A stretch of DNA of 64,000 nucleotides from positions 1,079,396-1,143,395 of the forward strand of contig NZ_LT841358.1 of the NCBI RefSeq assembly GCF_900177045.1, written 5' to 3'. The notes below the pieces were generated by a model. The model worked only from the letters and a program-made list of their open reading frames with translations, did no database searches and was not told where the DNA came from. The DNA comes from Candidatus Nitrosotalea okcheonensis (GTDB lineage Archaea > Thermoproteota > Nitrososphaeria > Nitrososphaerales > Nitrosopumilaceae). Made by a program: the position numbers and the translations under genes. Positions 51,723 to 56,575 of this stretch are shown piece by piece (the first letter of the stretch is position 1; every line of letters begins with the position of its first letter).

Positions 51723-52313
51723 GTGATTCTACCGTGCAATGATACCATGATAAAAAAGGCATATGAAATTGTACAAAAGGGAGGAACCGTAGTGTTTCCT
51801 ACCGATACAGTGTATGGGATAGGCTGTGATCCACGCAACCAAGATGCAGTTAACAAGATTTACAAAATAAAGGGCAGAGAGAAAATGAAACAACTTCCGG
51901 TTTTGGCATACTCAAAAAAAGACATTGCAGACATAGCATTTTTTGATGAGATTTCTGAAAAAATAGCAGACAAGTTTTGGCCTGGTCCAGTTACGTTGAT
52001 TCTCAGAGTCAAGGACAAGAAAATTGAAGAAGCCCTTGATCTCAAAGGCAAAATTGCAGTGAGAGTTCCCAATCATCCTTGTGTACTTGCCCTTTTGGAA
52101 AAATGTCGATTGCTTGTAGGTACTAGTGCGAATCTTTCTGGGGAATCATCATTTAGTGACTCTAAAGAAGTGGCAAGTAAATTCTCAGGCTATGACATAT
52201 TGCTTGATGGAGGACAAATTACCAACTCGCATGAATCCACCATAGTTGAAGTTGTAGATAATGAATTAAAAATAGTAAGAGAAGGCAAAATAAAAATGGA
52301 GTCGTTAGTGTGA
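51723..52313 (+). CDS. Threonylcarbamoyl-AMP synthase (Sua5/YrdC)
   Basis: 196 residues from GTG. GGTVVFPTDTVYGIGCDP, KGREKMKQLPVLAYS, FWPGPVTLILR, VRVPNHP and GTSANLSGESS are the YrdC blocks. It makes the TC-AMP donor of the universal tRNA t6A37 modification. It overlaps the THUMP gene by 4 bp, and a Cgi121-domain protein of the KEOPS complex is encoded next door. Confidence 0.95.
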   Translation: MILPCNDTMIKKAYEIVQKGGTVVFPTDTVYGIGCDPRNQDAVNKIYKIKGREKMKQLPVLAYSKKDIADIAFFDEISEKIADKFWPGPVTLILRVKDKKIEEALDLKGKIAVRVPNHPCVLALLEKCRLLVGTSANLSGESSFSDSKEVASKFSGYDILLDGGQITNSHESTIVEVVDNELKIVREGKIKMESLV

Positions 52314-52831
52314 ATTTAATTGCAACATGCAGCAGACATATGGAGGAAGAGGCATGTAATGAAATTTCTGAAATTATTGAAGATCTCGGGGATGACTCGC
52401 CCAGAATAGGAAAATCAAGTTTTTCTGGTATAATTTGGATTGACACTTGCATTGATCCATTTTCTGTGATAGACAACATCAAAAAAATAATTCTAGACGA
52501 ACCATGGAGAATGAGATATTGTCACAGATTCATACCAATAAGACATACTACTTCATCCAATCTTGAAAACATTGTAGAGAGCGTAAAAAACCAAATTAAA
52601 ATCATGAAGGATATAGATACTTATAGAATCACAATTGAAAAAAGAGGATCAGATATATCCTCAAAAGAATTGATAAATTTAATTGCAGACATAATTCCAA
52701 ACAAGGTATCTTTAGAGTCTTACTACTGGAATGTCATGATTCAGATAATGGGCGGTATTGCAGGGATTTCCATACTAAAAGAAGAAGACATTGTGAGTAC
52801 ATTAAGACTCAAACGAGATTCAATGGAATAG
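52310..52831 (+). CDS. THUMP-domain protein (Tan1-like)
   Basis: 173 residues from GTG. The THUMP pattern runs from ~60 to 160 (CHRFIPIRHTTSSNLENIVESVKNQIK...RITIEKRGSDISSKELINLIADIIPNKVSLESYYWNVMIQIMGGIAGISIL). No methyltransferase or other catalytic domain is attached, as in Tan1/THUMPD1, the tRNA adaptor for N4-acetylcytidine formation. Located inside the tRNA-modification group. Confidence 0.85.
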   Translation: MNLIATCSRHMEEEACNEISEIIEDLGDDSPRIGKSSFSGIIWIDTCIDPFSVIDNIKKIILDEPWRMRYCHRFIPIRHTTSSNLENIVESVKNQIKIMKDIDTYRITIEKRGSDISSKELINLIADIIPNKVSLESYYWNVMIQIMGGIAGISILKEEDIVSTLRLKRDSME

Positions 52832-53599
52832 TGTTGCAGATCTTTCTACAAGCAAGTCTTCCAGAGGCGTACTAGAAATAACACAGTCAATCTCTTTTTG
52901 CGTCATTCCAAATTCTTTTTTTATGAATTTGGAATTGTCTTTTGAGAACACATTACTCTCTAAAAGATCGTTAATTTTATCAAATAGTTTTTCAAGCAAT
53001 GATTTTTTTCCAATTATCACAAGTATGGTATCGGTATTTGGTTTTACACCGACTTTGGATATGGCATCGCTAATTTGTCTAGTACATGCAAATCGCATGA
53101 GAATATCAGTCTCAAGTTTATTTGAAAGTAAGGTATCTGCTCTTTTAGCAGACAAGGAAATTGCCACTGTTTTTTTGACATGTTCTACGTTCAAGACATA
53201 CCGTGCTTGAATTCCTTGGATAACAAGATCTGGGTGTGTCTCTCGAATAGATTCAAGAAATTTGATTGGTTCTTTGACGGTTTTTTTGAGCAATACAAGT
53301 TCTACAGTAGTATTCATCAAATCAAACTGTATTCTTTTTGATCTTCCGCCATGGACCACTGGGATTATGCTTACAACATCCCCATTTTTTAACAAGGTCT
53401 CCTTTCCTTGTAACACAGACGAGTCTACGCCATTTACTGCAACTAGGATATTATCGTGGTCAATCTGAGGTAAATTTGCAGGTATTGATACTTTGAGATG
53501 ATCCAATAGTGCAAATATGGTGATGCCATCACGTTGAACTTCAAGTTTATCAGATGAAAATGATTTTCTTGCACTGCCCAGAAGCTTGACTATTATCAT
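52820..53599 (-). CDS. MoaD/ThiS-like ubiquitin fold fused to Cgi121 (KEOPS subunit)
   Basis: 259 residues. Residues 1-85 (MIIVKLLGSARKSF...LVAVNG...GDVVSIIPVVHGG) are a MoaD/ThiS beta-grasp with the terminal-type Gly-Gly at 84-85, but the chain goes on. From ~90 the sequence follows Cgi121/TPRKB (LLSNKLETDILMRFACTRQISDAISKVGVKPNTDTILVIIG). Cgi121 binds tRNA and Bud32 in KEOPS, which uses the TC-AMP made by Sua5, encoded 500 bp away. The fusion is unusual. It converges with the THUMP gene. Confidence 0.8.
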   Translation of the reverse strand: MIIVKLLGSARKSFSSDKLEVQRDGITIFALLDHLKVSIPANLPQIDHDNILVAVNGVDSSVLQGKETLLKNGDVVSIIPVVHGGRSKRIQFDLMNTTVELVLLKKTVKEPIKFLESIRETHPDLVIQGIQARYVLNVEHVKKTVAISLSAKRADTLLSNKLETDILMRFACTRQISDAISKVGVKPNTDTILVIIGKKSLLEKLFDKINDLLESNVFSKDNSKFIKKEFGMTQKEIDCVISSTPLEDLLVERSATLFH

Positions 53600-53647: not shown

Positions 53648-53917
53648 CTAGTTGAGTATCTGTTCTTCAATCTCTTCAGTCTCATCAACTGATTCATCTG
53701 GAGCAACCACTTCAGACTCTTTTTCTTTTTGCTCCTCTAGTTCGCGTCTGAGATAAGAAGAAATGTAGCCCGCAATTTCGTTCTTTAGACCTTTAGATCT
53801 AACAATTGCGATTTCGTTTAGAACCTGTTTGTTGTGTGTAAAATCAATATCAAATTTTCCTTTATAAGTAGACATAAGTTCTGTGGAAATTCGTCTGATT
53901 CTATTCACGAATTGCAT
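53648..53917 (-). CDS. rps17e: Ribosomal protein S17e
   Basis: 89 residues from ATG at 53917 (MQFVNRIRRISTELMSTYKG), chosen because a TATA box (GGTATAAAAAAC) ends about 12 bp upstream. NKQVLNEIAIVRSKGLKNEIAGYISSYLRREL is the S17e core. An acidic tail of ~25 residues (EEQKEKESEVVAPDES...) extends past the usual end. A small 30S subunit protein. Confidence 0.9.
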   Translation of the reverse strand: MQFVNRIRRISTELMSTYKGKFDIDFTHNKQVLNEIAIVRSKGLKNEIAGYISSYLRRELEEQKEKESEVVAPDESVDETEEIEEQILN

Positions 53918-53939
53918 GGGACAAAGGGGTTTTTTATAC

Positions 53940-54695
53940 CTATACACCAAGATACGAGTCGGCATTTCTTTCTACTACAAGCAGCATTTCATCATATGAT
54001 TTGTTCAGGATACTAGCAGCACAAAAAAGGACGCTTGGAAGAAATGCTATTTGTGCAGTTTTCATACCAAAGCACTTGGAGAATTTCACCGGCCCATCAG
54101 TTTCCAACAATATTTTGTCATGATGTGTTTGTGAAAGAAGGACTTGTTTGTCATCAGAGTATACCATTGCAGGTCCATACGACACAAAACAGCCTAATTC
54201 CATTGCCTTTTGTAATTGTTTTTTGCTGCCAGAAAACCAATGAAGTAAAACACCTTTTATAGAATAAGAAGGGAGTATAGAAAAAATTTCATCCAGAGTT
54301 CTCCTTGAGTGAACAGATATTGGTTTACCTAATTTTTCTGCAAGCGAGAGCATCTTTTGAAACACTAATACTTGCCTTGAGAATCCAGCCTCGTCTGAGA
54401 CATATGTCTTGTCAAGACCAATCTCACCTATGCCAGATATTTTGTTAGAGTTTTGAGTAATTAGTTCCACCATTGCATGTAGATCATCATCTGCTTTTTC
54501 AGGATGAATTCCAATAAAGGGAAGGACGAGGGAGCTACGCTTACTCAGATCAAGTGTGGATTTTGAGCTCTGGTTATCCATGGACACACAGCAGGCCCTA
54601 ATTTTCATTTTATCCATAGTAGTGAGTATACATTCCATGTCACTAGAATATTCATTGTCTGATAGATGGATATGAGTATCAGTCAGCCAGGTCAT
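53940..54695 (-). CDS. TatD-family metal-dependent DNase
   Basis: 251 residues. DTHIHLSD metal site at the start, GIHPEK, IGEIGLDKTY, PISVHSRRTLDEI, LHWFSGS and ETDGP are the TatD blocks; the family acts as 3'-5' exonuclease/deoxyribonuclease. It precedes S17e on the same strand with 22 bp between. Confidence 0.9.
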   Translation of the reverse strand: MTWLTDTHIHLSDNEYSSDMECILTTMDKMKIRACCVSMDNQSSKSTLDLSKRSSLVLPFIGIHPEKADDDLHAMVELITQNSNKISGIGEIGLDKTYVSDEAGFSRQVLVFQKMLSLAEKLGKPISVHSRRTLDEIFSILPSYSIKGVLLHWFSGSKKQLQKAMELGCFVSYGPAMVYSDDKQVLLSQTHHDKILLETDGPVKFSKCFGMKTAQIAFLPSVLFCAASILNKSYDEMLLVVERNADSYLGV

Positions 54696-56194: not shown

Positions 56195-56575
56195 TTATTT
56201 TAAGGATTGTGTAACTAAGCGTCGTACATCCTCAACATTATGGGTTTTTAGTGCTATTCCTGTAGAGATTTGGTGTTTATAATTTATGTCAGCGTTAAAA
56301 ATAATACCATTTATTCGAAGAAAAGTATCGGCAATTACAAATCCCATCCTTTTATTACCATCAGCAAAATATTGGTTAAAAGATAATGTATGCCACAGAT
56401 ATGCAGCTTTACCGATTATGGCATCTCTTTCAGGTTCATTTTCATAAACCTCTTCCACTTGGTATAACATAAAATCCACTCCTCCTTCGTATAAGTAACC
56501 AAATGCTTTTGGTTTAGGTTGAAGACTTTTGTGAATTTCTTCTATCTGTTCTTTAGCTAGATAATAAATCACCAT
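56195..56575 (-). CDS. Fic/Doc-type protein with Gln replacing the catalytic His
   Basis: 126 residues, the Doc size. The Fic core is present in FNQYFADGNKRMGF, where the general motif is HPFxxGNKR; here the residues are Q68-Y-F-A-D-G-N-K-R, so the catalytic His is Gln. The phosphate-binding DGNKR is intact. The protein could bind nucleotide without transferring it, or use nearby H62. It starts within the last codon of the upstream 481-residue gene (TAATG), so the two are made together. Confidence 0.75.
   Translation of the reverse strand: MVIYYLAKEQIEEIHKSLQPKPKAFGYLYEGGVDFMLYQVEEVYENEPERDAIIGKAAYLWHTLSFNQYFADGNKRMGFVIADTFLRINGIIFNADINYKHQISTGIALKTHNVEDVRRLVTQSLK

Follow-up and report, generated by a model that had tools for sequence, protein, structure and literature searches.

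The fusion gene and its neighbours

The 64,000-nucleotide stretch of Candidatus Nitrosotalea okcheonensis DNA that was analysed (the window) carries, at 52820..53599 on the minus strand, a gene for a 259 amino acid protein in which an N-terminal ubiquitin-like (Ubl) domain is joined to the KEOPS subunit Cgi121, as judged from the ORF list, Pfam, NCBIfam, AlphaFold and Foldseek. The Ubl domain is of the ThiS/MoaD/Urm1 type and comprises residues 1-85 (53345..53599, minus strand). The ThiS family, PF02597, scores above cut-off over residues 4-85 (E 4.2e-12), the end of the match coinciding with Gly84-Gly85. Together with His83 these glycines (53345..53353, minus strand; codons CAT GGC GGA, nucleotides 53353-53345) form the proposed boundary, the putative cleavage being after Gly85. 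The Cgi121 domain, residues 105-257 (52829..53287, minus strand), is matched over exactly that span by the KEOPS Cgi121 model NF011465 (E 3.1e-36; 124.8 bits against a cut-off of 40) and over residues 108-253 by CGI-121, PF08617 (E 5.9e-12, above cut-off). The Pfam and NCBIfam matches thus agree with the first-pass annotation, which had described a ThiS/MoaD-type Ubl and Cgi121 in one chain with Gly84-Gly85 at the end of the Ubl. NCBIfam equivalog models score the Ubl part below their cut-offs (SAMP1 22.9 against 60, Urm1_like 28.1 against 70, moaD_arch 30.9 against 49.5), so that it is called Urm1/SAMP-like here and assigned to neither.

In Foldseek comparisons the Cgi121 part resembles solved Cgi121 of yeast, human, plant and Methanocaldococcus, and it has a fold match, by structure likeness alone, to solved Bud32-Cgi121 and Cgi121-tRNA structures. 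Binding of the tRNA 3′ CCA end by Cgi121 is described in a passage of PMC9889334 that cites PMC7718258. The Ubl part resembles SAMP1, Urm1 and MoaD. Mean pLDDT of the AlphaFold model is 89.7 and its pTM 0.67; the sole segment of three or more residues with pLDDT below 50 is residues 83-85, and it is flanked by two ordered domains.

Convergent with the fusion gene is one for a Sua5/TsaC-type L-threonylcarbamoyladenylate synthase (51723..52313, plus strand; TIGR00057, 172 bits, above cut-off), the enzyme that produces the t6A precursor in the first step of t6A synthesis. The gene for a stand-alone THUMP-domain protein (52310..52831, plus strand; PF02926, E 9e-4, just under the Pfam cut-off) overlaps the end of the Sua5 gene by 4 nt and the 3′ end of the fusion gene by 12 nt. 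Upstream of the fusion and on its strand are genes for ribosomal protein eS17 (S17e; 53648..53965, minus strand; PF00833, E 2.8e-15) and for a TatD-family nuclease (53940..54695, minus strand; PF01026, E 5.9e-48), the latter being the first gene of the run TatD-S17e-fusion. This run, with convergent THUMP and Sua5 genes, is in identical order in 54 named loci with full flanks, mostly of Nitrosopumilaceae or Thaumarchaeota. Much of the TatD/S17e/THUMP/Sua5 neighbourhood is also present in deep families where Ubl and Cgi121 are split, and so the association with genes for t6A and translation predates the fusion. Sua5 and THUMP genes adjoining the fusion, as the first-pass annotation had them, are both there, on the opposite strand, in a neighbourhood conserved far beyond the fusion itself; for the part that it envisaged for the Ubl in t6A synthesis, genome comparison gives no direct support. 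Elsewhere in the window, at 56195-56575 on the minus strand, reading by eye points to a small protein resembling Fic/Doc, whose motif (NQYFADGNKR) has N where H is usual.

Fused and split forms across the order

Makarova & Koonin found the Ubl-Cgi121 fusion, next to S17e, in all Thaumarchaea then available (PMC2948915). As this appeared in 2010, the finding as such was already known, and the novelty that the first-pass annotation implied for it falls away. The published fusion and that of the window are of the same protein family and share their architecture and the S17 neighbour on the same strand. While the 2010 study dealt with the fused state only, known from a handful of genomes, and put forward a part in regulating KEOPS or in tRNA modification, new here are the split relatives, the HGG boundary, the tails, the alternative partner and a case without Gly-Gly. 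Within the open-licence subset of the later t6A/KEOPS literature no follow-up of the fusion was found, and in the open-licence papers PMC12625751, PMC4569737, PMC11323500 and PMC4048286 there was no link of Urm1/SAMP conjugation or of NcsA to KEOPS.

Cgi121 was surveyed in 151 genomes of the order, and the DNA around 95 matches was read; because the search model was of Cgi121 only, the survey is neutral on HGG. The fusion is present in 33 of the 34 sampled genomes of the Nitrosopumilaceae (family f1 below). Genus g38 of family f8 is mixed, with the fusion in four genomes and two genes in three others. All 80 named loci retrieved also have it, one with a frameshift; they are left out of the evidence on HGG conservation, since HGG was part of one of the two patterns with which they were sought. 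These two counts answer the suggestion of the first-pass annotation that the fusion be sought in other genomes, and because of them it is neither a chance occurrence nor a frame artefact. The frameshift, a single one in the Ubl part of the fusion of Candidatus Nitrosotalea sp. TS (L209:3001-3778), is a sequencing error or the mark of a decayed gene.

Most other families of the order have a separate Ubl gene that ends His-Gly-Gly-stop and overlaps Cgi121 or lies just before it, and in several of these split genomes the Cgi121 frame is bounded by the Ubl stop codon itself. Genomes of genus g16 have the Ubl gene elsewhere, away from Cgi121. Within the Nitrosopumilaceae one genome (G071; L138, G071:C9) has its chain re-split one codon past HGG, the sequence being HGG-Ala-TGA followed directly by TTG and Cgi121. 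On a tree of Ubl plus Cgi121, made by a quick method from 259 columns, parsimony gives five changes between fused and split, at least three of them forced by well-supported branches. Outside the order, the Ubl immediately adjoins Cgi121 in the four sampled f25 loci and in one f49 locus and is 0.5-0.8 kb away in f20, f23, f51 and f52; near Cgi121 in the sampled loci of f18, f27, f29, f40 and others there was no HGG-ending ORF.

The main rival to a cut after HGG is that the chain stays full length, with the Ubl a permanent module of KEOPS that serves, for example, to dock components of tRNA thiolation or of the proteasome onto Cgi121, and HGG a binding motif or hinge. Fixation of the fusion in 33 of 34 f1 genomes and the short linker after HGG are in keeping with it, as is the adjacency of Ubl and Cgi121 even where they are unfused, which makes some functional link likely. 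The places at which the chain is split, all at the same point, are not what it would lead one to expect, and the sequences at and after HGG bear on it further.

The His-Gly-Gly boundary

Among the 37 fusions found via Cgi121 in the main set, all have HGG, and a search with an HMM from which the C-terminal tail had been left out gave no fused ORF lacking it in that set. Of the 259 columns 23 are invariant among the 37, and 14 of these, including His83, Gly84 and Gly85, are in the 85-residue Ubl part. At each of the two glycine positions all four Gly codons are used, and the residue after Gly85 may be S, A, T, R, K, M, N or L. Non-conservation of the Gly-Gly in homologues, which the first-pass annotation had named as what would speak against its proposal, is not the pattern seen, though one further fusion, described below, has lost it. 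The invariance also bears on the idea of the Ubl as a relic, a domain that has degenerated, has no carrier or modifier role and hitch-hikes with Cgi121. Gene fusions can preserve inert domains, and the scores against the NCBIfam SAMP1 and Urm1 models could be taken in that sense, but with so large a share of the invariant columns in the Ubl, and with genes for E1, NcsA/TtuA and JAMM present, a relic is highly improbable.

By profile search, an HGG-type Ubl is present in 133 of the 151 genomes, mostly as a single copy. Of the separate Ubls where the DNA was read, 69 end exactly in HGG, 16 have tails of 1-9 residues after it (CL, MVGV, SPKPA and CLRYDGEVE are examples) and one is joined to a phosphoribosyltransferase. 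Since separate genes upstream of Cgi121 end exactly in HGG-stop, HGG is the expected mature C terminus. In the last of these cases (G011; L119, G011:C62) the HGG-type Ubl is fused not to Cgi121 but to the phosphoribosyltransferase domain (PF00156, E 4e-16), the joint ORF lying next to Cgi121 on its upstream side. Genomes of f9 encode the phosphoribosyltransferase on its own, in a gene that stands between those for Ubl and Cgi121. Across the relatives, then, this same Ubl naturally ends in HGG. It keeps HGG where this is internal, and after HGG the chain may stop or go on as a short tail, as Cgi121 or as a different enzyme. The exception is a Ubl-Cgi121 fusion with LHCS instead of HGG (G015; L327:877-1611, G015:C77). 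Neither E1 nor JAMM was detected in that one genome, which is 82% complete, and absence calls are weak where genomes are incomplete.

A permanent hinge has no need to keep Gly-Gly for so long. It is disfavoured by the split genes ending in HGG, by the tails and by the alternative partner, and a permanent two-domain KEOPS subunit leaves these unexplained, together with the exact fission points and the loss of Gly-Gly in the genome where both E1 and JAMM went undetected. Despite its standing as the main rival, it is therefore considered unlikely.

Machinery in the genome

The genome to which the window belongs is 1.97 Mb and 99.8% complete. It encodes two JAMM proteins (ORFs at L146:2566-3021, minus strand, and L147:2366-2773, plus strand), each with its HxHx7SxxD motif intact (HSHPVSVPYPSLTD and HSHPSGVAKPSVTD) and neither encoded near the fusion. 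By sequence the first resembles JAMM1 of the PDB (5ld9), and also, below cut-off, the model for haloarchaeal desampylase; the second resembles AfJAMM. The sole full-length E1 (ThiF/MoeB) follows a second Ubl in the same chain, with AGG where the two meet (G000:C1:1305908-1306837, minus strand; L148:2597-3913). Of the two Ubls found in the genome neither has a free C terminus. One thiolase of the NcsA/TtuA type is encoded. Kae1 is present (PF00814, E 1.9e-72), with a Bud32-like ORF, identified by reading only, 0.4 kb downstream of it. No MoaE match was found in this nearly complete genome, where controls were positive, and a MoaD role in molybdopterin synthesis is rejected for that reason.

JAMM was found in 138 of the 151 genomes of the order. 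It is missing in none of 54 genomes whose Ubl needs trimming and in five of 69 with an exact-HGG Ubl (Fisher p 0.067, not significant and uncorrected for kinship), a lack of significance that follows from JAMM being nearly universal. This co-occurrence with Ubls that need processing is consistent with processing and no proof of it.

A proposed precursor, cut after HGG

The reading preferred here, with a probability of roughly two in three, is that the fusion is a Ubl precursor which a JAMM of the desampylase type cuts after HGG, giving an Urm1/SAMP-like Ubl and free Cgi121. The gene product would be a polyprotein, and a JAMM/MPN+ metalloprotease would cut it after His-Gly-Gly, at residue 85, during or after translation. 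The cut would free a Ubl bearing the C-terminal Gly-Gly that its E1 requires, and the freed Cgi121 would join Kae1 and Bud32 in KEOPS. The Ubl would most likely carry sulfur for tRNA 2-thiolation via NcsA/TtuA, be conjugated to proteins, or both. Its tie to Cgi121, Sua5, S17e and THUMP may lie mainly in a shared neighbourhood and in shared expression of genes for translation and tRNA modification, for which a covalent bond is not required.

In favour of a precursor are the separate HGG-stop genes, the interchange of states, the invariance of HGG, the tails, the phosphoribosyltransferase partner, the loss of Gly-Gly where E1 and JAMM went undetected, the low model confidence at HGG, the JAMM genes, the want of a free C terminus in both Ubls of the genome and the precedents given below. 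Counting against it, an advantage of the covalent link could be why the fusion is nearly fixed in f1; furthermore, JAMM is near-universal in the order, the loss of Gly-Gly is from a single 82%-complete genome and neither JAMM gene is near the fusion. The release of a Ubl and a KEOPS subunit from one chain, put forward in the first-pass annotation, gains from relatives that encode exactly these two as separate genes and from precedents (PMC4326299, PMC4443979, PMC6043591); the cut itself, the protease responsible and the substrates of the Ubl we infer, the data being compatible with a cut precursor.

The MoaX protein of Mycobacterium tuberculosis, a MoaD-MoaE fusion, is cut at Gly82-Ser83 and works only when cut (PMC4326299). 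It resembles the fusion of the window in having an N-terminal Ubl, an internal Gly-Gly with cleavage after its second Gly, and a fused partner enzyme (PMC4326299), but its partner is MoaE and its pathway that of the molybdenum cofactor, while here the partner is a KEOPS subunit in a genome without MoaE. In archaeal JAMM/SAMP systems a linear Ubl extension is removed exactly after Gly-Gly: HvJAMM1 cuts SAMP1-MoaE after GG (PMC4443979) and CsJAMM cuts SAMP precursors (PMC6043591), those of Caldiarchaeum being a close archaeal parallel. The extension in Ubl-Cgi121, where the cut is a predicted one, differs in being a whole conserved subunit.

Regulated, partial cleavage would have the uncut chain and its products both act, with JAMM activity setting the activity of KEOPS and so of t6A synthesis, and the Ubl perhaps also conjugated to KEOPS subunits. 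Reversible control of SAMP1-MoaE by HvJAMM1 is a precedent (PMC4443979), residual full-length MoaX has been observed (PMC4326299), and regulation of KEOPS by SAMPylation was proposed by Makarova & Koonin (PMC2948915). However, many relatives have no fusion at all, so that control of KEOPS by cleavage would not be general, and KEOPS is unmentioned in the text on Saccharolobus Urm1 proteomics; partial cleavage is accordingly rated quite improbable.

Among eukaryotes, fusions of ubiquitin to ribosomal proteins likewise release a Ubl from a C-terminal partner belonging to the translation machinery, and there the partner can vary while the GG stays. They differ in Ubl family and protease class, and the partner in the window is a tRNA-modification subunit. 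The proposed cut exactly after Gly-Gly would parallel the way in which cells cut ubiquitin precursors.

If the precursor reading is right, the main HGG-type Ubl of the ammonia-oxidising archaea in the Nitrosopumilaceae is first produced in precursor form, the link between Ubl and KEOPS is one of co-expression and pathway and not a fixed covalent complex, and in the split, fused and tailed forms one sees how precursors of the ubiquitin style come about and are undone. There is somewhat better than an even chance that this is a natural, lineage-wide Ubl polyprotein in which a KEOPS subunit carries the main HGG-type Ubl as its N-terminal extension, the only form in which that Ubl is made, and a JAMM is needed to release it, the supply of this modifier or sulfur carrier (for s2U thiolation or protein conjugation) being tied one-to-one to a t6A subunit, with the C-terminal partner free to change while HGG stays. 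What the comparison predicts is precise: a single cut, directly following HGG, made by the product of one or the other of the two JAMM genes.

Elsewhere in the order, hit coordinates show a JAMM gene immediately preceding a ThiS domain, which in most cases starts an ORF of Ubl-E1 size (G057:C128, G050:C88, G070:C128, G075:C176, G115:C244, G118:C113, G130:C24, G139:C65 and G004:C90), which suggests a JAMM/Ubl-E1 operon in deep lineages.
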